A DNA stretch of 64,000 nt, taken from positions 251,518-315,517 of the forward strand of contig CAUYUJ010003891.1 of the NCBI GenBank assembly GCA_963575745.1, written 5' to 3'. The notes beneath the pieces were generated by a model. That model made no database searches. It worked only from the letters and a program-made list of their open reading frames with translations, and had not been told where the DNA came from. The stretch's first letter is position 1; every line of letters begins with the position of its first letter. This DNA is from Prorocentrum cordatum (taxonomy: Eukaryota; Sar; Dinophyceae; Prorocentrales; Prorocentraceae). The position numbers and the translations under genes were made by a program. Shown one piece after another: positions 12,655-48,130 of this stretch.

Positions 12655-12910
12655 TTCGGTGGATTCACCCCCGACCGAGAACCGACGGGGCCCGAACGAC
12701 TCACCCCCGACCAAGACCTGAGGGGCCCGAACGACTCACCCCCGAACGAAAACTGAGGGGCCCGAGCGACTCACTTCCGACAGGGAAGCGAGGGGGCCGA
12801 ACGACTCACCCCCGACCGAAAACTGAGGGGCGGCGCCGCCAAGCGGACTGCGCCACTGGGACTTTCGGTGGAGCCCCCCGTGGGGCCACGAAGCGTGTGA
12901 GGAGCGTGCC
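12655..12910 (-). repeat. Inverted 35-bp array plus one 90-bp satellite unit
   Basis: CCCGAACGACTCACCCCCGA-type units, five or six in number, are the reverse complement of the array at 10676-10890. They are followed at 12830-12910 by a satellite unit (GGGGCCACGAAGCGTGTGAG). The order mirrors 10676-10960. Confidence 0.7.
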
Positions 12911-12914
12911 AACA

Positions 12915-15020
12915 TTACAGCCCCAGAGCGCCCCAGCCGAGCAACCAGCCGCAGCCGACCCCAGCCCAGCGGCAGCAGGAGACATCCCAGCCGAGGCCCC
13001 CCCCAGACGGGGCCCCTCCAGATACACAAGACCGCCCCACCGCAGAGACACCAGAGGACGGCGGCCGACTGGCGTCGGTGTTGGCGGAAGCCTCGATATG
13101 GGCATTGCGACTGTGAGCTAATATGAGTTCGATTGGATGTGCGCATGAGTGGGTCTGAGTATGAGTAAGTCCGAGTGTAAATGAGGCTGAGTGTGGGCGA
13201 GCCCGAGTATGATCCAGCCTGAACTTGAATGAGTCGGAATGTGGATCTGACTATGATGGATGATTGAGTCTGAAAGTGGCCGAGTGTGAATGCGAATGAA
13301 ACTGAAAGGCTGAAAGCGTGCTGCCCGCATGCCAGGTCCCCCAAACGGAGTGAGACGGCTCGACAGATCCGCCAGCCCTGGTTCAACGGCAGGCTGGCCA
13401 AGTTCCTGCCGAGGTGGTAAGACCAAATCCGCCAGCCCTGGTTCAACGACAGGTGGGCCAAGTTCCTGTCGAGGTAATGAGGCACCATATCCGCCAGCCC
13501 TGGTTCAACGACAGGTGGGCCAAGTTCCTGTCGAGGTAATAAGACACGCACGGCGAGCACTTGACTGAGCACGGCCCTCATGGCCCCCTCCTGAGAGGCC
13601 CAGGCCCCAGGACCTCGGGGGCCCCAGCCTCGCCCTTGCGGGCAGGCACACCCCAGAGCGCCCCAGCCGAGCAACCAGCCGCAGCCGACCCCAGCCCAGC
13701 GGCAGCAGGAGCCATCCCAGCCGAGGCCCCCCCAGACGGGACCCCTCCAGATACCCAAGACCGCCCCACCGCAGAGACACCAGAGGGCGGCGGCCGACTG
13801 GCGTCGGTGTTGGCGGAACCCTCGATATGGGCACTGCGACTGTGAGCTAATATGAGTTCGATTGGATGTGAGCATGAGTGGGTCTGAGTATGAGTAAGTC
13901 CGAGTGTAAATGAGGCTGAGTGCGGGTGAGCCCGAGTATGATCCAGTCTGAACTTGAATGAGTCGGAATGTGGATCTGATTATGATGGATGGCTGAGTCT
14001 GAAAGTGGCCGAGTGTGAATGCGAGTGAAACTGAAAGGCTGAAAGCGTGCTGCCCGCATGCCAGGTCCCCCAAACGGAGTGAGACGGCTCGACAGATCCG
14101 CCAGCTTTGGTTCAACGGCAGGCTGGCCAAGTTCCTGCCGAGGTGGTAAGACCAAATCCGCCAGCCCTGGTTCAACGACAGGTGGGCCAAGTTCCTGTCG
14201 AGGTAATGAGGCACCATATCCGCCAGCCCTGGTTCAACGACAGGTGGGCCAAGTTCCTGCCGAGGTAATAAGACACGCACGGCGAGCACTTGACTGAGCA
14301 CGGCCCTCATGGCCCCCTCCTGAGAGGCCCATGCCCCAGGACCTCGGGGGCCCCAGCCTCGCCCTTGCGGGCAGGCGCACCCCAGAGCGCCCCAGCCCAG
14401 CAACCAGCCGCAGCCGACCCCATCCCAGCGGCAGCAGGAGCCATCCCAGCCGAGGCCCCCCCAGACGGGACCCCTCCAGATACCCAAGACCGCCCCGCCG
14501 CAGAGACAGAGGACGGCGGCCGATTGGTGTCGTTGTTGGCGGAAGCCTCGATATGGGCACTGCGACTGTGAGCTAATATGAGTTCGATTGGATGTGAGCA
14601 TGCGTGGGTCTGAGTATGAGTAAGTCCGAGTGTAAGTGGGGCTGAGTGTGGGTGGGCCCGAGTATGATCCAGCCTGAACTTGAATGAGTCGGAATGTGGA
14701 TCTGACTATGATGGATGATTGAGTCTGAAAGTGGCCGAGTGTGAATGCGAGTGAAACTGAAAGGCTGAAAGCGTGCTGCCCGCATGCCAGGTCTCCCAAA
14801 CGGAGTGAGACGGCTCGACAGATCCGCCCACCTTGGTTCAACGACAGGCGGGCCAAGTTCCTGCCGAGGAAATCAGACACCAAATCCGCCAGCCCTGGTT
14901 CAACGACAGGTGGGCCAAGTTCCTGTCGAGGTAATGAGGCACCATATCCGCCAGCCCTGGTTCAACGACAGGTGGGCAAAGTTCCTGCCGAGGTAATAAG
15001 ACACGCACGACGAACACTTG
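12915..15020 (+). repeat. 730-bp higher-order repeat, three copies
   Basis: CCCCAGAGCGCCCCAGCC occurs at 12921, 13651 and 14380, so copies are spaced 730 and 729 bp. Each copy has a CAGCCGCAGCCGACCCCAGC block, a stretch of degenerate TGAGTCTGAGTATGAG words (about 13110-13320 in copy 1), and two or three 60-70 bp subunits with CCGCCAGCCCTGGTTCAACG. A minus-strand frame stays open over most of the array because 729 is divisible by three. Its product repeats with the DNA and I do not call it a gene. Confidence 0.8.
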
Positions 15021-28429: not shown

Positions 28430-30072
28430 TGTTCCCAACCATCCTGTGGTGTTGGGTCCTCGTTTTGAAGAGACGGTGCCCCGCGTCTCCTTCCCCCTCC
28501 TCTCCTCCTCCGCCTCCTCTCCTCTCCTCCTCTCCTCCCCTCCTCTCATCCTCTCCTCTTCACCCACCCAATACACCGCTTCGTGGCTCCATAGGGAGCT
28601 CCGCCGAAGGCCCCAGTGCCCGCGCCCGCATGCGTCACCCACACCCATTTCGGCACACCCCTCACACGTTTCGTGGCTCCATAGGGAGCTCCACCGAAGG
28701 CCCCAGTGCCCGCGCCCGCATGCGTCACCCACACCCATTTCGGCACACCCCTCACACGTTTCGTGGCTCCATAGGGAGCTCCACCGAAGGCCCCAGTGCC
28801 CGCGCCCGCATGCGTCACCCACACCCATTTCGGCACACCCCTCACACGTTTCGTGGCTCCATAGGGAGCTCCACCGAAGGCCCCAGTGCCCGCGCCGCAT
28901 GCGTCACCCACACCCATTTCGGCACACCCCTCACACGTTTCGTGGCTCCATAGGGAGCTCCACCGAAGGCCCAAGTGCCCGCGCCCGCATGCGTCACCCA
29001 CACCCATTTCGGCACACCCCTCACACGTTTTCGTGGCTCCATAGGGAAGCTCCACCGAAGGCCCCAGTGCTGCCGCCCGCATGCGTCACCCACACCCAAT
29101 TCGGCACACCCCTCACACGTTTCGTGGCCCCATAGGGAAGCTCCGCCGAAGGCCCCAGTGCTGCCGCCCGCATGCGTCACCCACACCCAATTCGGCACAC
29201 CCCTCGCAAGTTTGGTGGCCCCATAGGAGCTCCGCCGAAGGCCCCAGCGCTGCCGCCCGCATGCGTCACGCACACCCAATTCGGCACACCCCTCACACGC
29301 TTCGTGGCCCCATAGGGAGCTCCGCCGAAGGCCCCAGTGCTGCCGCCCGCATGCGCCACGCACACCCACTTCGGCACACCCCTCACACGTTTCGTGGCCC
29401 CATAGGGAGCTCCGCCGAAGGCCCCAGTGCTGCCGCCCGCATGCGTCACCCACACCCCATTCGGCACACCCCTCACACGTTTCGTGGCCCCATAGGGAGC
29501 TCCGCCGAAGGCCCCAGTGCTGCCGCCCGCATTCGTCCCGCACACACATTTCGGCAGACCCCTTACACGGTTCGTGGCCCCATAGGGAACTTTACCGAAG
29601 GCCCCAGTGCTGCCGCCCGCATGCGTCACGCACACCCACTTCGGCACACCCTCACACGTTTCGTGGCCCCAAAGGGAGCTCCGCCAAAGGCCCCCGTGCT
29701 GCCGCCCGCATGCGTCACGCACACCCACTTCGGCACACCCTCACACGTTTCGTGGCCCCAAAGGGAGCTCCACCGAAGGCCCCAGTGCTGCCGCCCGCAT
29801 GCGCCCCGCACATTCATTTCGGCACACCCCTCGCACGCTTCGCGGCCCCACAGGGAGCTCCACCGAAGGCCCCAGAATGCTGCAGCCCGCATGCGTCCCG
29901 CACACCCATTTCGGCACACCCCTCACGCGCTTCGCGGACCCATATGGAATGCGTCCCGCACACCCATTTCGGCACAACCCTCGTACGTTTCGTGGCCCCG
30001 TAGGGGGCTCCACCGAAAAAGATATTCACAGTTGCGGTATTCACACTTTCATACGGTTGGGTCCTTCGCCAG
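28430..30072 (+). mobile_element. Composite element with an internal 90-bp array of about 16 units, inserted in the 42-bp array
   Basis: It opens with the 55-bp header (CCCAACCATCCTGTGGTG ... TTTTGAAGAGACGG), then a CTCCTCC tract, then units of exactly 90 bp at 28581, 28671, 28761 and 28851, later drifting by 1-2 bp. Units read TCGTGGCTCCATAGGGAG, GCCCGCATGCGTCACCC and GGCACACCCCTCACACG. It closes with ATACGGTTGGGTCCTTCG then CCAGGATAAT. The same tail appears inverted at 12408, 12593 and 36601. Array sequence of the 42-bp family stops at 28430 (AACCTATTTGTT) and restarts at 30073 (TTTCACGCTTGTCCCG). An uninterrupted equivalent (AACCTATTTGTGTTCACGC) lies at 30150, which shows insertion. No protein is encoded; open frames follow the period. 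Confidence 0.85.

Positions 30073-40078: not shown

Positions 40079-40114
<36 letters not shown>
40079..40114. repeat. (TA)18 microsatellite
   Basis: Thirty-six bases of alternating TA lie directly against the outer end of the B2 repeat of the retroelement at 40115. Confidence 0.97.
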
Positions 40115-40119
<5 letters not shown>

Positions 40120-40338
40120 CCCCTGGGAAACGTGCTTCGGCCCAGACGCAGCACTACTAAATCCAGATCCTGCCTTGAACCTCAGACGACGAAGACAGCA
40201 AACGTCGACGCGAGGGCGCTTATTTTCTGAGCCGGCTCGTGGACACCGCGAGGAGTGCCTGAGGGGCAGCAGCGCCCCGAAAATTGCCGGAGAAGAGCTG
40301 ACCTCAACTCCGGCCTTTAATAGATTTGCCAAAATACT
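40115..40338 (-). repeat. B2 repeat, outer 3' end of the retroelement
   Basis: Copy of B1 differing at about 20 of 225 positions (for example CAGACGCAGC versus CAGACACAGC). It borders the (TA)18 tract, which may be the target or an insertion-associated expansion. Confidence 0.75.
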
Positions 40339-40446
40339 GGACCCCAGCAGCGCACAGGAGGCAAGTGTAGGTCAGCGGCGCAACATCGTCGAGGACACAC
40401 ATGCAAAGGGAAGGAGACGGATGAAAGAGGGAAGGAAGAGGGGGGA

Positions 40447-40732
40447 GAGGGGCGAGCAAATAACAGCAGAAACACTTAGATGAGGGATAAACCGCGCAGA
40501 CACATATCACATCCCCTGGGAAACGTGCTTCGGCCCAGACACAGCACTACTAAATCCAGATCCTGCCTTTCGCCTCAGACGACGAAGACAGCAGACGTCG
40601 ACGCGAGGGCGCTCATTTTCTGAGCCGGCTCGTGGACACCGCGAGGAGTGCCTGAGGGGCAGCAGCGCCCCGAAGATCGCCAGAGAAGAACTGGCCTCAA
40701 CTCCAGCCTTTGATAAATTTGCCAGGATTCCC
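40447..40732 (-). repeat. B1 and A2 repeats at the 3' end of the retroelement
   Basis: B1 is 40508-40732 and A2 follows at 40447-40507 on the minus strand. The two abut at CACATATCAC|ATCCCCTGGG. A 109-bp unique segment (40339-40446) with a GGAAGGA-rich purine tract separates A2 from B2. Confidence 0.75.
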
Positions 40733-40734
40733 GG

Positions 40735-41800
40735 CACGCCGAGCAGCAGCGAGGGCCTCACTGACCACCTGCAGCGCGCGCGCTCTGAGAGCTTCGCCCG
40801 GATGCGCGCCGCCTGCCGCAGGAGAGCATCCGAGATCCGAGACTCGGGCCAGCGAGCGCCCAAGCTGGCTGGCATCGTCTGACTGCGCAGCTCGCGAGCG
40901 ACGCCCGCCGACTTCGCTGCTGGATGTCCTCAAACGACGTCTTGTGCCCAAGGAGTCGCGGCTAGGCCCGGCATGGACAGACCGGGGGCGACCGTCGGGC
41001 AGTCCAGGGCCTGGCTCATCTCACTGTAGAGCCGATCCAGGCTGCGCAGCGGGAGGGCTCGGAAGAGGAGCTCTTCTGCTGGGGGGTCGCGGACGAGCAG
41101 CTCCAGCAGGTCAGGGGCCCAGGCCCTGTCGTGGGCCCCAAGCACCACGCTGGCGTCGAACCGTCTGTTCTTGGCTGGCGGGGCGCCGCGGGGGGCGATC
41201 GTCAGAGCCCAGCCCTGGGCGGCGGCCCCTCGGCGCGGCCGGCGGGCCGCCGCGCCCGCCAGCGCCGGCCCTTCTGAGGGCCGGCGGTCGCAGTCCACGC
41301 TGGCCCAAGCGCGAGCCGCCGCCATGGCGCACAGGAGCCGGTCGTGGCCCCCGGCGCGGTTGACGAAGTAGTCGATGGCCAGGTAGACCTGCCCCACGCG
41401 CGGCGGGCCCCTGCAATGCTCGGGCGAGGAGCGAGCGAAACCCAGCAGAGCCGGCCTCGAGCGAGGCAGGAGGGAGGGATCCCTCCGAGGCCACCCATTG
41501 ACGAAGGCGGCCCCGTGGAAGGCGCACCGCGCGACGGCGACGCGGCCCGCCGCCAGGTAGAGCGTCTCGACGTAGTCCTCGAAGGCGCGGCCCCAAGCAT
41601 CCAAGCTCTTGCCGCTCGGAGCGTCGCGACCCAGGGAGCGAACCACGTCGCCGTAGGCGGCCTCGTAGCGCTTGCGGTTGACGGGGGTGGCCGTGAGCCT
41701 CTTGAAGAAACCGAGCTGCTCGGCTTCGTGCTGACGATGGCGCTGTCCACGCCGACGGCCACGAGCATCCACCTCGGTGAGCAGGGAAAATGCCCCGCTC
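40735..41800 (-). pseudogene. Tyrosine-recombinase-like domain in the retroelement
   Basis: ATPVNRKRYEAAYGDVVRSL, WGRAFEDYVETLYLAAG and LPRSRPALLGFARSSPEHCR form the N-terminal helical part. DCDRRPSEGPALAG supplies an RxxE-like box (first catalytic Arg). ALTIAPRGAPPAKNRRFDAS supplies a Lys-containing strand. After a one-base frame change at about 40985-40995 the neighbouring frame gives PRSVHAGPSRDSLGTRRRL, comparable to the RH(x)G box II, then EVGGRRSRAAQSDDASQ in the place of the final W/H...Y region. The terminal Tyr is not identified. A tyrosine recombinase fits the split direct repeats that bracket the element. Confidence 0.6.
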
Positions 41801-41929
41801 CTCGTCCAGGTCGGCCCCGCCCCTGGAGCGGCCCGCCTGCCCCCAGCCGAGCGAGGCCCGGCGCGGGAGGGACGGGGGCGCCACCGCGGCTCCTGAGCTG
41901 GTTCTGGACTCCCCGGCCGCGCGCCTGAG

Positions 41930-42766
41930 CTCGTCCTCCCACGAGGGCGCCAGGAGCTGCTCGCCGGCGCTGCCGAAGGCGCTCGGCGGGGCGGCCTCCC
42001 CCAGCACCCAGGCCAGAGCACGACAAGGAGGTGGGGGGTACGCCGCTGCATACGAAGTCTGCCACCGCCATCCATCGCCCTCGACGAAGACCCAGCCCTG
42101 CCGAATGATGCGTCCCTAGCAGCCTGGGCAGCGGCGGACAGCCTCGGGAAAGTTGGGGAAGTTGCTGCACAGGCCAGCGGGCTTCTTCCAGGCGGCGCCG
42201 TAGGCGCACATGTGGATCTCGTGGCGCTCGCCGCCGCATCGCCGAAGTTGCTTCCCAAGCGGCTGCCAGCCCCAGAGGCCAGAGGACCAGGGGTTCCCCA
42301 GCACCACGAACACCTGGTGACCGAAGCACTCCTGGAAGATCCGCGCGGTGAATCGAGCACTCTCCAGGCCGTCCTTCTCGGTGCTGCCCGACGGCTCCGA
42401 CTGTCGGGCAGAGCTCCAGCGGGCGCACGGAGTGCCGAGGGCCACGGCCCAGAAGCGGCCGCTCCGGACCCAGCCGACGACGGCCGCCGCCACAGCGGGC
42501 AAGACGACGCTGGATTGCCCCCCGTTCGCGGTGTCGAACGGCACGGCCACGGCGAGCCCCGCGAGCGCCACCGCAGCGGAGAGCCGCAAGCACCCGGCGA
42601 AGACCTCCAGGAATGCCTTCCCCCATCGCTGCACGCCCGGCCGAGCGCGGACCTCTGGCCTGGGCTCCCGCACAGGCCGGGGCGGGCGCCCCAACCGAGG
42701 GCCCCTGTCGGCGGCGCCGAACGCGGCCCCCGCGGCTGAAAGGTCCTCGCCTCGCGCCTCCGCCAC
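41930..42766 (-). pseudogene. Cytosine-methyltransferase-like domain in the retroelement
   Basis: One frame reads AFLEVFAGCLRLSAAVALAG (42616-42557), like the SAM-binding motif I of C5 methyltransferases (xFxGxG). Then come AVALGTPCARWSSARQ, with the Pro-Cys dipeptide in the place of the catalytic motif IV, VVLGNPWSSGLWGW in the place of the ENP/ENV motif, and IHMCAYGAAWKKPAGL. After an in-frame TAG at 42118-42116 the same frame continues with GWVFVEGDGWRWQTSYAAAY. The motif order fits a Dnmt-like Rossmann fold, but the target-recognition region is not evident and motif VI lacks Glu, so activity is uncertain. Capture of cytosine methyltransferases by retrotransposons has been reported in dinoflagellates. 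Confidence 0.65.
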
Positions 42767-42879
42767 CCGGGCCGTCGGCGTCGCGGCCGCGGCTCCAGCG
42801 CGGGGGAGTGCGCCGCCGCCCTCGGCGGCCGGCCGGAAGAGAGGCGGCCTTCGTCAAGGCCCTCCGCACCTCGGCCTCG

Positions 42880-45085
42880 GCGTTCCTCGCCCGGCCGAAG
42901 GCGCGACAGGCGCAGGCCGTAGTCGCTGGGGTTGCGTTCCGTCTCGATGCGCTGGCGGGCCCAGCGGGCGTTCGCGGCTGCTTGCAGAGCGGCCGCCCTC
43001 CGCGCGAAGGCCGGCAGCTCCCCGCAGCGAGCCCGCCCGCCGCCCACGGCAAAGACCTCGGACATGTTGTCCCCGAGCGAGAGCAGCACGCGAGAATGGT
43101 TGGCAGGATCATTGCAGAAGTCCTCGAGGCCCATGAGGGCTGCTCGGGCCTCGAGGTGGTGGATCTAGGCTGCGAAGGCGTCGGTGAGCACTGCGCCCGC
43201 GGCGCCAGGCGCCAGCGCGCCTCGCAGATCGTCTCGTCGATCATCGAGTGGCGGTGAAGGGTCCGCCTCCATGAGCCTCCACCTCTCATGTTATGGGGCG
43301 GCGGCCCAGGCCTCGCGCGGGTCGGTGTCCCTGGCGTGGAACGCGAAGCCCCGCGCGCTGGAGTCCGAGCAGCACGCCACTGTGGCGATGCCTCTCCCGA
43401 GCACCGACGCAGCCAGCGCCAGCACGCCCTGCGCCACCCGCAGCCCCACGACCACGGCGGTGTCCAGCACGCGCGGCGGCCCCAGCCCGTCGCCCACGAT
43501 CTGGTAGGCCGAGCCCAGGCAGTAGAGGAGCTCCCTCCTGACGCTGAAGTGGCCCACCAGGTGGCCGATGATGTTGCGCAGCTGGGCGGGCGAGATAGGC
43601 CGAACCTGGCAAGCCTCGTCAGGGGCCAGCCGCGGCCGCCGCATCCGCCGCGGCCTCGGGATGAGGCAGCGCCGCCGCCCGCGGATCTGGCGCCCGACGG
43701 ACTCGCGGTCCGAGGCGGGCCCCGCCCCCTCGTGGAGCAGGAAGTCGATGCAGGTGAGCTCCTCGCACAGCGCGTGGAAGAGCCTGAGCGCGGCCTCGGG
43801 GCTGCCGCCGACGAAGTTGCCGTTGTCGACGAGGGGGGCGACGAGGGCGGCGGCCCTGCCGGACAGCGGCGGAGGCCCCCACTCCTTAAGGGCGGCTTCG
43901 GGCCCCCCCCGCCGCCGCAAAGCTCGGCGCGACGCCGCCTCCAGGCTGCCGTGGCAGAAGAACATCGTCCGGCTCCAACCCATCGGCCAGCCTCTAAAAC
44001 GCGCCCAGAGGAGCTCGTGACCTTCTCCGGGGTCGACGGCGTGCTGAACGTTATCGTAAACCTCAGCGACACCGATGTCCAAGGTCGCCGACGACGCGCC
44101 CCCTGGGAACCCCGACGCGGCGCTGTCCGCGCGGAACTGGTAGACGCCATCCTTGAGGTCCATGCCCGCGCCCGACAGGTCGAGCACGTCGACGCCCTCG
44201 GCGCCTTGGCCGCGCGCGGGGAGGCCCCCTGCCGACAGTCGGCACCACTCCCCCGACAGCGCGAGGTTGGAGAGCGCCCCCGGCGAGGCGAGGTCGGACT
44301 TCGGCGGCCGCCCGTGGTGCTGGTTGGTCGGCCTGCAGTCCAGGACGAGCCTGAGCGCGTCGCCCTTCTGTTTGACGAAGACAGCCCCGACCAGGCAGCG
44401 CCCCCGTCTCTTCCACGAGATGAGGCCCACTCGGTCGAGACGGCGCACAAGGTCCCGGCGCGCCTCCAGCGAGCCGACGAGCTCGGGGTCCCAATGCGGC
44501 ACCGCGGGGTCCACGATCGACGCCAGTCCCTCCGGCAGCAGCACGATGAAGGAGACGGGATCCTCGAGGTACGGACGCCGCTCGTCAACCACAAGGTCCA
44601 GGGCATTAACAGGATCGCCAGACCGATGCAGGGCCGCCAGCTTGCTCGGGTCGCACGCCGCCGCGGAACAATCGTCGTCCACGTCGTAGATCGACCTACG
44701 CTTGATGATCTCCTGGAGAGCCCCCTCCGCAAACTCGGCGTTGAGGTCCGGCGGGGGGAGGAAGTGCGCCACTGCGCGACCGATGTTGTTGAGCACCCCG
44801 CCCAGCGCGGCGCCGATGCTCTGGGGAGAAACTCGGCTGGGCGACTCGAGCACGAGTGCCCGTCCCGGCTGACAGCTAGCCGCTAGCCAGGGCGTCAAGA
44901 GACGCCGCGGCCCCTTCCACCAACTCTTCAGATCGAGCCTGCCGGCGCCGCCGCCGGGCCAGGTGGCGGGCGCCGCCTCCGCTCTCCGCCGCCTCGGGAA
45001 GGCGTAGGGGTATCGGAAAAAAGCCAGCCCCGACCACCATGATGACAGGGTCGGCGCCAGCCCCGAGCGACCGAAGCAGGCTGCC
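42880..45085 (-). pseudogene. Reverse transcriptase and RNase H domains
   Basis: RT motifs in order: FVKQKGDALRLVLDCRPTNQ (fingers), VDVLDLSGAGMDLKDGVYQF (first catalytic Asp region), RGWPMGWSRTMFFCHGSLEA, and APLVDNGNFVGGSPEA, where the usual YxDD is VDN, a form I associate with this dinoflagellate group. Further on HLVGHFSVRRELLYCLGSAY precedes the RNase H-like ACCSDSSARGFAFHARD (43372-43335). The same frame continues through a TAA at 43293-43291 and a TAG at 43167-43165 into HSRVLLSLGDNMSEVFAVGG and ETERNPSDYGLRLSR, the end of the RNase H region. Two nonsense codons in one otherwise intact frame point to decay rather than splicing. Confidence 0.85.
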
Positions 45086-45089
45086 TCAG

Positions 45090-46581
45090 TCACTTGTCCT
45101 TTTCTTTGCCGCCTATGGGGCCCTTGTCCCCAGGTCCCTTGCACTTGTCCTCCTCCTCCTGGTACAACTTCGCCTGCTTCTGGGGGAAGGCCCGCGACTC
45201 CTGCCCGTCCGCCATGCACCCTGCGACCTTCTCCGTGAGGACGCCGCCGGTGGAGTCCAGCGAGCTCATCACCATAAGTAAGCCGCCCTGGAAGACGGGG
45301 TTCGCGGGCGAGCGGGCCACCGCCCGGTGGATCTGGAGAAGCAGGCGGGCGCACCTCTCCGCGCTGGCCAGCTGGCCGGCGCTCAGCAGGAAGGTCATCT
45401 CGGCGAGCGCATCCTTGAGCTTGGCGAAGCGGGGCCGGTCGAGGTCCCGCTGGATGGGGGGGGTGTGGGCGTCCTGGCCGCGGCCACTCGTCTTCTCCTC
45501 GCGCCACTCCACCACGTCCTGGACGCCGACCTGCACCGCAAAGGTCCAGAAGCGGTACCCATGCTCCTCGATCTCGGCCAGGACCGCGCCCCCCTTGGTC
45601 ACCATCCTGAGAGCAATGCGTGTGATCTCGAGTGGCATAATCTCCCCGAACATGTCGTGCGCTGTGCCCGCGACCCTCCACTCCATCGTCAGCGCGGCGG
45701 CCGCTGCTGCGGGACCCGCCGCCCCAGCTTCCGCTGGGTAAAGCACAGCCGCCACAGCCGCCGCCTCCTGACGGGCCATCTGCAGCGCCGCCTCGTCGAA
45801 CTGGTCGGTGATGTAGATGTCGCGCGCCACGTGCGCTGGGTACGGAGCAGCTCGAGCGAACGGCACCACGAGGTGCCTGGAGATGACGACGACCAGCACC
45901 TCCGCGTCGGGCGAGAACGCGATCCAGCACAGGTCGTCCAGTCGATGCGCCTCGGCGAGCAGGTGACATCTAAAATGATCGTCCTCGAAGTTGATGGCCA
46001 CCATGGTCTCGTGGATGTCGGGCGCTCTCGCCCTGGTGCCAGGCTAACCCCGACCTGGCCCTCAGCGGGTCCTCCGCGAACGCCAAGGGGTTGGCTCGCC
46101 CGTCGAAGGGTCCCCAGCAGCCGAGCCCGAAGGCACAGACGGCGACGAGGAGGCGCTGGCTCGCGCCGCCGCAACGAGCTCGGGCAGCCCGAGCGGGGGG
46201 GGCCGGGAGCGCCCGCTTCCAGCGCCCGCTGCGGCGTTCTCGGGCGGCGCTCTGGCCGCCGGCCTCCGGCCGTCAGCCTGGCCTGCGAGGCACGCGAGCG
46301 GCAGCAGGCCCCCGATGCTGCACGCCAGCGAGAGCGACCAGCCCCCACCAGAGGGCGCCAAGGCCGCTGGCCACGCGGGCGCCGCGAGCCCAGCTGGCGT
46401 GCTCTGGCCCGCCACCGCCAGGCACTCCGCCGCGCGCTCCGGGCACGCCGCACAACCCCGCGAGCAGGCCGGCCACTCGAGCCGTGGCTCGCAGACACGC
46501 GGCGGCGCCGCAGGCGCCAGGGCTTGCGCGACCCACCCGCCGCCAATGCCGCCAGAAGTTCTCGTACGAAGATGGAGACAT
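45090..46581 (-). CDS. Gag-like N-terminal protein of the retroelement
   Basis: The best-supported part is 46004-45090, about 304 residues: FEDDHFRCHLLAEAHRLDDL, WIAFSPDAEVLVVVISRH, a mid region with MEWRVAGTAHDMFGEIMPLE, then PRFAKLKDALAEMTFLLSAG and a basic, Lys/Asp/Gly-rich end (CKGPGDKGPIGGKEKDK). I recognise this layout as the domain preceding RT in related dinoflagellate polyproteins. Upstream, a start at 46581 (MSPSSYENFWRHWRRVG) and hydrophobic Ala/Leu/Gly-rich segments (SLACSIGGLLPLACLAG) are present but in more than one frame. Role if intact: particle or RNA binding. The following RT frame is -1 relative to this one. Confidence 0.65.
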
Positions 46582-46611
46582 GATGGCTACCCCTGGCCCT
46601 GAAGGCCTGCG

Positions 46612-46674
46612 GCTCGAGAAAAGAATTGCAAAAGCACTTAGATGAGGGATAAGCTGTGCAGACACATATCATAT
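46612..46674 (-). repeat. A1 repeat at the 5' end of the retroelement
   Basis: It matches A2 at 40447-40507. The plus-strand core is CACTTAGATGAGGGATAA, then GCAGACACATATCAT. Homology stops at its outer side (TATGTTCCGTGCAGCG beyond 46674), consistent with the element boundary. The first candidate ATG of the polyprotein is at 46581. Confidence 0.7.
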
Positions 46675-46676
46675 GT

Positions 46677-47400
46677 TCCGTGCAGCGTGGATATCGCCTG
46701 CTCTTGCTCATCTATATCATCGTTATGTCTTTCTCCCCCGCATGTAATGTGTCGGATAATCGCGCACGCATTGCTGATGCATCGGCGAATATGAGATGGA
46801 GAAGAACGGGCTCCGAATCGCGCCACAACGCCGATGCATCGGTACATCGGCAATGCGGCTTGATCCTTCGGCCGCATCTGCTCTGGCACATTTTGGAAGG
46901 CCTGGACCCCTCCCTGGACATCCCGCGATGTGATCTTGTTCCATGCGCGGCCCCAAAGGTCTTGACCACTTCTCCTAGGGTAGCTTTTCGTCCCCAGTCA
47001 AATGTTTGATAGCCCAAGGGCCCGATAAAAAGGCTCCATGGGTCGAAAGCGAGGAAACACGCCGGGATCGAGAAAGCCTCCTCCTCCTCATCATGCCCGC
47101 GGCCCCCTCCGAGCCTGCGGCATGGCCCACCGACATCAGCTGGGCGCCCCCTGCGAGGCACGGATGGCGTCGATCTTGGCCTTCTGCCTCCGCTTCTTCT
47201 CGTCCTGCGCTCCCGCAGGGGGCGGTGCCGCGCCTACCGTGTCTTATCATGCCTCGTTGGCTTCTATCGTCTCCATGTCGGTGTACGTTTTTTCCGTTGG
47301 TGCCAGCACGACTACAATCCAAGGAACTCTACACAAAGAACGAAGCCCCCAACTCGGTCCAAAAAGCGCTCGGGTGCACGAGGAGCGCCAGAGGAGCAAC
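46677..47400. other. Unassigned sequence beyond the retroelement
   Basis: Open frames on both strands lack domain features. 47090-47230 is GC-rich. CGATGCATCGG occurs at 46831 and similar TGATGCATCGGCG at 46773, minor repeats. No gene is called. Confidence 0.4.
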
Positions 47401-47403
47401 CAC

Positions 47404-48130
47404 GGAAGGACCTGGGGAACAACGAGCCCCTTCTAAACCCAAACCCTCCATGCGTCCGGTCGCACACCGCCGATCGTCACCGTCGTCCTCCTCCTCCTAG
47501 GCGGTCGACGTAACCATGGAAGGACCTGGGGAACAACGGGCCCCTTCTAAACCCAAAAACCCTCCATGCGTCCGGTCGCACACCGCCGATCGTCACCGTC
47601 GTCCTCCTCCTCCTAGGCGGTCGACGTAACCATGGAAGGACCTGGGGAACAACGGGCCCCTTCTAAACCCAAAAACCCTCCATGCGTCCGGTCGCACACC
47701 GCCGATCGTCACCGTCGTCCTCCTCCTCCTAGGCGGTCGACGTAACCATGGAAGGACCTGGGGAACAACGGGCCCCTTCTAAACCCAAAAACCCTCCATG
47801 CGTCCGGTCGCAAACCGCCGATCGTCACCGTCGTCCTCCTCCTCCTAGGCGGTCGACGTAACCATGGAAGGACCTGGGGAACAACGGGCCCCTTCTAAAC
47901 CCAAAAACCCTCCATGCGTCCGGTCGCACACCGCCGATCGTCACCGTCGTCCTCCTCCTCCTAGGCGGTCGACGTAACCATGGAAGGACCTGGGGAACAA
48001 CGGGCCCCTTCTAAACCCAAACCCTCCATGCGTCTGGTCGTACACCGCCGATCGCCACCGTCGTCCTCCTCCTCCTGGGCGGTCGACGTAACCATGGAAG
48101 GACCTGGGGAACAACGGGCCCCTTCGGGGA
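47404..48130 (+). repeat. 116-bp tandem repeat, seven units
   Basis: GGAAGGACCTGGGGAACAAC starts units at 47404, 47518, 47634, 47750, 47866, 47982 and 48096 (114-116 bp). Each has GGGCCCCTTCTAAACCC, CCTCCATGCGTCCGGTCGC and CCGTCGTCCTCCTCCTCC then GCGGTCGACG. Inner units are almost identical, implying recent expansion. The last unit turns into different sequence at 48125. Confidence 0.92.

Follow-up and report, generated by a model that had tools for sequence, protein, structure and literature searches.

Among retroelements that carry a tyrosine recombinase (YR), the relevant passages of PMC4157794 and PMC3266345 place the PAT type, with its split direct repeats, within the methyltransferase (MT)-bearing DIRS group and take the lack of an MT to define Ngaro and VIPER. 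Dinoflagellate retroelements with a Dnmt3 have already been reported: the sections of PMC5890265 that deal with them describe SymbioDIRS-Dnmt3 of Symbiodinium, published in 2018, as having reverse transcriptase (RT), RNase H, C5 methyltransferase and YR domains and A–coding–B–A–B repeats, and they characterize the RTs of Symbiodinium DIRS elements as too divergent for Pfam. Here we analyze a YR retroelement of about 6.55 kb on the minus strand of a 64,000-nucleotide stretch of the dinoflagellate Prorocentrum cordatum (contig CAUYUJ010003891.1, positions 251,518 to 315,517; hereafter the window). It reads A1–gag–RT–RNase H–methyltransferase–YR–B1–A2–B2 from position 46674 to position 40115 of the window. 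Its best explanation, and a highly probable one, is that it represents a fairly old, now dead PAT-like YR retrotransposon whose pol bears a compact phage-type C5 methyltransferase.

Layout, repeats and coding blocks

The coding blocks, all on the minus strand, were located by tblastn with homologous proteins, 16 of which are referred to below by their P numbers. Because Pfam and NCBIfam gave no match at an E value of 1 for six long frames of the window, domain names were taken from homologs and motifs; eight further frames, one of which (45689-46711) overlaps the element, likewise gave no Pfam match at E 0.01. The features are as follows.

46615 to 46674, minus strand: A1, the 5' terminal repeat, aligned with A2 over 60 nt at 83% identity, 64.4 bits
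45093 to 46031, minus strand: gag-like open reading frame, matched in tblastn by P0005 (48%) and P0006 (43% and 51%), both of P. cordatum
43168 to 44880, minus strand: RT plus the first half of RNase H, aligned with P0003 over 571 aa at 74% identity
43822 to 43833, minus strand: RT motif C, LVDN in this copy, YxDN in homologs
42841 to 43164, minus strand: second half of RNase H, aligned with P0003 over 108 aa at 78% identity
41762 to 42640, minus strand: C5-like MT domain, 70% identity over 293 aa to P0003
40777 to 41735, minus strand: YR region, its C-terminal part frame-broken, 50-75% identity to P0004 and P0005; the tblastn block covers 41712-40777
40508 to 40724, minus strand: B1 repeat, 93-94% identical to B2
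40453 to 40507, minus strand: A2 repeat, directly abutting B1, 83% identical to A1
40115 to 40331, minus strand: B2, the 3' terminal repeat and element end, 93-94% identical to B1; the similarity ends at GGGGATGTG
40079 to 40114, no strand: (TA)18 microsatellite adjoining the element, called by Tandem Repeats Finder as 18 copies at 100% match

Aligned as direct repeats, A1 (46615-46674) and A2 (40453-40512) share 83% identity over 60 nt, and B1 (40504-40724) and B2 (40110-40331) share 93% over 222 columns. The two pairs score 64.4 and 330 bits, and the next best pair scores 31.0. The best direct match in 100 sequences simulated with a first-order Markov model built on the 6.8 kb in question reached 35.6 bits, and the A and B repeats are far above this chance level. 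On the minus strand, the flank meets A1 as ACATATG followed by ATATGTGTCTGC, B1 meets A2 as GGGGATGTG followed by ATATGTGTCTGC, and B2 meets the other flank as GGGGATGTG followed by TATATA. Repeat similarity breaks off cleanly at all three junctions, and the joints have ATRTG in common, in keeping with a recombinase core. The true start of the element probably lies at 46669. No target-site duplication was seen by eye at the flanks, and the (TA)18 run is possibly part of the target site. The internal repeat pair is located 3' of the YR. A tandem duplication was considered as the origin of B1 and B2 and rejected, as it leaves A1, six kilobases away, unexplained.

A preliminary description, made from the letters of this stretch, had proposed a dinoflagellate YR retroelement with an MT, enclosed by split direct repeats in the order A1 … B1-A2-B2. 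The repeat scores and the homologs found for each block uphold both proposals, and the coordinates given there were correct to a few bases. The layout, the domain assignments by homology, and the repeats with their ends can be regarded as established. Signs of decay are seen throughout: frame shifts occur between and inside domains, RNase H is partly lost, the MT has an in-frame stop, motif residues are changed in the RT and the MT, and the C-terminus of the YR is frame-broken. The copy is dead and probably fairly old.

The homologs establish what these blocks are. P0003 is an intact RT-RNase H-MT protein of 1170 aa; P0004, P0005, P0006 and P0007, all from P. cordatum, supply the YR, and P0005 and P0006 also the gag. 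By themselves, these homologs point to P. cordatum or a near relative as the host. A regular-expression scan for the CCHC zinc knuckle of gag in the three frames of 45080-46720 found none in this single decayed copy. Upstream of the gag-like frame, at 46278-46541, a cysteine-rich stretch precedes a hydrophobic one; P0005 has a counterpart (61%). In RNase H, the two adjoining matches stop at residue 632 of P0003 and resume at residue 691, such that 58 residues are missing from the window copy.

The RT is divergent. Pfam RVT_1 was matched below the cut-off only (P0009, E 0.019; P0010, 0.031; P0012, 0.18), and the same scan, which excluded P0013, gave no RVT_1 match in P0003, P0004, P0006 or P0014. 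Searched against the PDB at E 0.1, the RT family profile returned four matches with E values of 0.013-0.064, namely a polymerase, a POL protein (twice) and a maturase reverse transcriptase. Motif C is YxDN and not YxDD in all 11 homologs in which it could be read (P0003, P0004, P0006, P0007, P0009, P0010 and P0012-P0016); the second catalytic aspartate is thus replaced by asparagine. YVDN is also motif C of the Cer7-Cer12 elements of Caenorhabditis elegans, and the relevant part of PMC554778 notes that the activity of this motif is untested. Those Pao/BEL elements are, however, LTR retrotransposons, and the two occurrences presumably have separate origins. The motif offers a natural test of whether an RT works without the second aspartate. 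In P0010, P0013 and P0014, the interval between RNase H and MT resembles, by eye and from the protein only, coding sequence in another frame, which looks like an overlap of the YR gene with pol, as described for DIRS1.

The YR lies in the same orientation as the RT, and in one reading it continues into B1, where it meets a stop near 40697. In P0004 the region shows LRPSEG, HGLRHAGPSHD and RGRW, and in the distant P0016 it shows RPGE, HGLRHGGAS, RGKW and SVQRY; we take these motifs to be the R, HxxR, W and Y of the YR active site. The profile phrog_1 (integrase) matches one of five YR members at E 3e-4.

The methyltransferase domain

The MT was studied through an alignment of 13 of the 16 homologs, which excluded P0005 (no MT), P0015 and P0016 (MT cut short) and the window's own domain, and used C-terminally trimmed domains for P0006 and P0007. 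It conserves LExFxG, GxPC, ENPxxS and a KPT-like stretch. C5 motifs I (FxG), IV (PC) and VI (EN) are present, motif VI being ENP and not ENV, and the target-recognition domain and motif VIII (QxRxR) are absent, as in short phage enzymes. The motif IV cysteine is kept in 12 of the 13 domains (P0004 has PR for PC), as is the motif VI glutamate (glycine in P0006), and the asparagine and proline of motif VI are kept in all 13. The window copy has an in-frame TAG at 42116-42118 and GNP instead of ENP.

Compared with a profile of eight short phage C5 methylases, the MT profile gave a probability of 96.9 and E 1.8e-10, against 88.5 and E 2.7e-6 with six canonical C5 enzymes; the phage set consisted of 8 of 116 phage records, and the canonical set of five of 877 Dcm-matching records and Escherichia coli Dcm, both picked for diversity. 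Single enzymes gave a probability of 82.3 and E 1e-5 (E. coli Dcm), 82.4 and E 1e-5 (one short phage enzyme), and 0.9 and E 0.064 (E. coli Dam). By these comparisons the domain is C5-like and not Dam-like, which can be counted as established and supports the C5 type considered in the preliminary description. Judged by profile, it fits the short phage C5 methylases better than the canonical ones.

The PHROG DNA methyltransferase families 2882 (262 positions), 757 (247) and the longer 363 (327) match 10, 8 and 7 of the 13 domains, with best E values of 1.2e-5, 2.9e-6 and 7.5e-5, respectively, and the window's own domain had no PHROG match at E 0.1. Pfam DNA_methylase (PF00145) was listed for none of the 13 at E 1, in a scan where HMMER filters drop most matches above 0.1; one short phage methylase itself barely passes this model (22.7 versus 22 bits). 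Against the PDB, the profile matched DNMT2 (E 0.0016, profile positions 8-80), and the eight rows at E 5 included DNMT2 and a cytosine-specific methyltransferase and no DNMT3. The top row, recA (E 0.001), was set aside, as no single stretch of it passes alone. For the MT domain of P0003, AlphaFold2 returned a confident alpha/beta model (mean pLDDT 82.5, pTM 0.83). One relative of the MT domain (E 5e-5) is P0017 of Symbiodinium sp. CCMP2592, a protein of 1634 aa without RT motif C, perhaps a captured or host copy.

The RT and the MT appear to have a shared history. For eight proteins with both domains, the matrices of RT and MT distances agree with a Mantel r of 0.97, a value reached in 2 of 20,000 permutations, and distances span 0.14-0.74 for the MT and 0.13-0.77 for the RT. 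The RT alignment comprised 8 of the 16 homologs; P0002, P0004, P0005, P0008, P0011, P0015, P0016 and P0017 were excluded as incomplete or lacking an RT. The main groups of the two trees agree, and the placement of P0013 and P0014 and the order among P0003, P0006 and P0007 differ. The agreement of the distances is established and, because of it, the protein comparison speaks for one old RT–MT association, not repeated swaps. On the same distances, the MT is kept about as well as the RT.

Weighing of the explanations

Several observations weigh against the PAT-like, phage-type interpretation. The YR alignment found no PDB chain at E 1 and no Pfam match. The catalytic tyrosine is unseen in the subfamily to which the window copy belongs: the window has cysteine at the likely place, the gene models of P0004 and P0006 appear to skip the site, and RGKW...SVQRY is seen in the distant P0016 only. 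P0004, P0006 and P0007 have the order RT-RNase H-MT-YR, and they make up three of the five proteins in which both MT and YR are readable; the YR precedes the MT in P0015 and P0016, and the gene model of P0005 has gag, RT and YR without MT. Order and content are therefore not universal. The element ends are defined from a single copy. A1 and A2 differ at 10 of 60 positions and B1 and B2 at 15 of 222 (Fisher p 0.037), an excess in A that is unexplained; each pair is expected to be nearly identical at insertion, according to the part of PMC6681497 that treats these repeats. As for the affinity of the MT, the phage set was found through a family member (P0014), which favors its own fit, and the sets compared differ in depth. 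The P0003 MT domain alone had no tblastn match among phages at E 0.1. The search of phages with the P0014 MT at E 0.1 brought up short-type matches only (6 records of 3 phages), in a collection where 877 records match Dcm, which counts against a search bias.

That the locus is a plain SymbioDIRS-Dnmt3 element, its MT being a fast-evolving Dnmt3, is rather improbable. Host group, layout and enzymes are the same, and the RTs are too divergent for Pfam both in the published account, as far as its RT passages go, and here. SymbioDIRS-Dnmt3 was nevertheless found with PF00145, which is listed for none of the 13 MT domains at E 1 (subject to the HMMER filters); DNMT3 is absent from the eight PDB rows at E 5, and ENP, KPT and the small size speak for an affinity with the short phage enzymes. 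Still less credence can be given to a Ngaro element that captured an MT independently. Ngaro has the same A1-ORF-B1-A2-B2 layout, but the MT follows RNase H in pol, as the relevant passage of PMC3266345 describes for DIRS1, and the agreement of RT and MT distances over eight distant proteins argues that the MT is no recent gain. An LTR-type element with a DDE integrase in place of the YR would be compatible with the RT and RNase H taken alone; in view of split A/B repeats that are not LTRs, flanks without a target-site duplication by eye, and the RPSE, HGLRHAGPS and RGRW motifs of P0004, we consider it scarcely credible.

A different alternative concerns the MT itself, which might be a non-catalytic remnant or act on RNA. 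Two features of canonical C5 enzymes, the target-recognition region and the arginines of motif VIII, are absent from it, P0004 has PR for PC, P0006 and the window have GNP for ENP, and the RNA enzyme DNMT2 appears in its PDB results. The near-complete retention of the motif IV cysteine and motif VI glutamate (12 of 13 each), the invariance of the motif VI asparagine and proline (13 of 13) and the RT-like distances make this unlikely, if by no means negligible.

A wider proposal is that a small C5 MT of phage type was captured by the YR retroelements of dinoflagellates in a separate and old event, independent of the published Dnmt3 captures and missed by Pfam, and that this MT was kept together with the equally unusual YxDN RT and spread with it through dinoflagellates, such that some DIRS elements listed as MT-less carry one. 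We regard this as an evenly balanced question. The proposed spread is drawn from Prorocentrum in this work, from Polarella, in which an RNase H and an MT were observed, and from Symbiodinium by name labels. If there is indeed a second, distinct C5 enzyme in these elements, methylation of their own cDNA would have been useful enough for repeated gain from different sources, and PF00145-based surveys would undercount the methyltransferases in dinoflagellate genomes.

Catalysis by every enzyme of the element is predicted. The ancestral element would have been transcribed, and the RT and RNase H that it encoded would have turned the transcript into cDNA; in the split-direct-repeat models outlined in the relevant part of PMC6681497, repeat annealing serves reverse transcription. 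The duplicated A and B repeats may then have aided closure of a circle. In these elements, the circle is then integrated by the YR. Insertion would have been carried out by the tyrosine recombinase at a short core, putatively ATRTG or shorter, without target-site duplication. Before integration, the C5-type MT of pol would probably have methylated cytosines in the cDNA or in the circle. The passage of PMC5890265 on this subject suggests that cDNA methylation might pass the DNA off as the host's own or protect it, the enzymes there being of the Dnmt3 and SymbioLINE types.

Neither a second copy of the element nor any additional copy of its A or B repeats was found within the 64-kb window. A viral contig collection scanned with P0003, the MT alignment, P0009, P0014 and P0010 yielded no relative, nor did a genome contig collection scanned with P0003.

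Other repeats of the window lie outside the element. Three spaced blocks (13367-13545, 14096-14274 and 14822-15004), each with three copies of a 60-62-nt unit of near-identical consensus, fall mostly within one long reading frame on the minus strand (12736-14961), which suggests a tandem gene array. Tandem Repeats Finder also reports two satellite-like arrays, one at 28580-29948 with a 90-nt unit (15.2 copies, 92% matches) and one at 47398-48125 with a 116-nt unit (6.3 copies, 98% matches).

Comparison with described elements and enzymes

With the PAT elements, especially Toc3 of algae and the echinoderm Pat1 form as presented in the pertinent part of PMC4157794, the element shares an MT, a YR on the same strand and split direct repeats. 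The position of the MT in pol after RNase H is a PAT-like trait, and Toc3 lacks a gag zinc finger, as does the one decayed copy read here. Ngaro and VIPER have the same A1-ORF-B1-A2-B2 arrangement, RT, RNase H and YR; they differ in lacking an MT, as PMC4157794 and PMC3266345 portray them. The preliminary description had filed the element under Ngaro, an assignment not supported in view of the MT at 41762-42640, as Ngaro is by definition without one in the passages of PMC4157794 and PMC3266345 cited above. Following the published definitions of PAT and Ngaro, the element therefore has the PAT layout and, by layout and domain content, is nearest to Toc3. Passages of PMC5890265 and PMC6338049 that do not name Toc3 call the MT of DIRS elements Dam-like; here it is C5-like by profile.

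The preliminary description had also known of no account of this combination of domains together with its termini. That view has to be given up in light of SymbioDIRS-Dnmt3, which, in the sections of PMC5890265 devoted to it, likewise has a dinoflagellate host, RT, RNase H, a C5-type MT in pol, a YR, A-coding-B-A-B repeats and a divergent RT; two domain orders are reported there, and two are also seen here. The difference lies in the enzyme. Compared by description only, the MT of SymbioDIRS-Dnmt3 is a Dnmt3 found by PF00145, and the MT here is unlisted for that model at E 1.

The short phage C5 methylases, such as those of Lactococcus phage CHPC129 and of Streptococcus phages (PHROG 757 and 2882; about 210-260 aa), have in common with the MT studied here a small size, the lack of a target-recognition region and the PC, ENP and KPT motifs. 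They are free-standing proteins, whereas the enzyme here is a domain of a retroelement pol. Among the open-access journal papers listed, from queries none of which was aimed at exactly this, and in the relevant passages of PMC12344493, PMC6338049 and PMC11453091, no YR retroelement was described as having a C5 enzyme of phage type. What looks new in this element is thus neither its combination of domains nor its termini, both of which have a counterpart in SymbioDIRS-Dnmt3, but the phage-like C5 methyltransferase.

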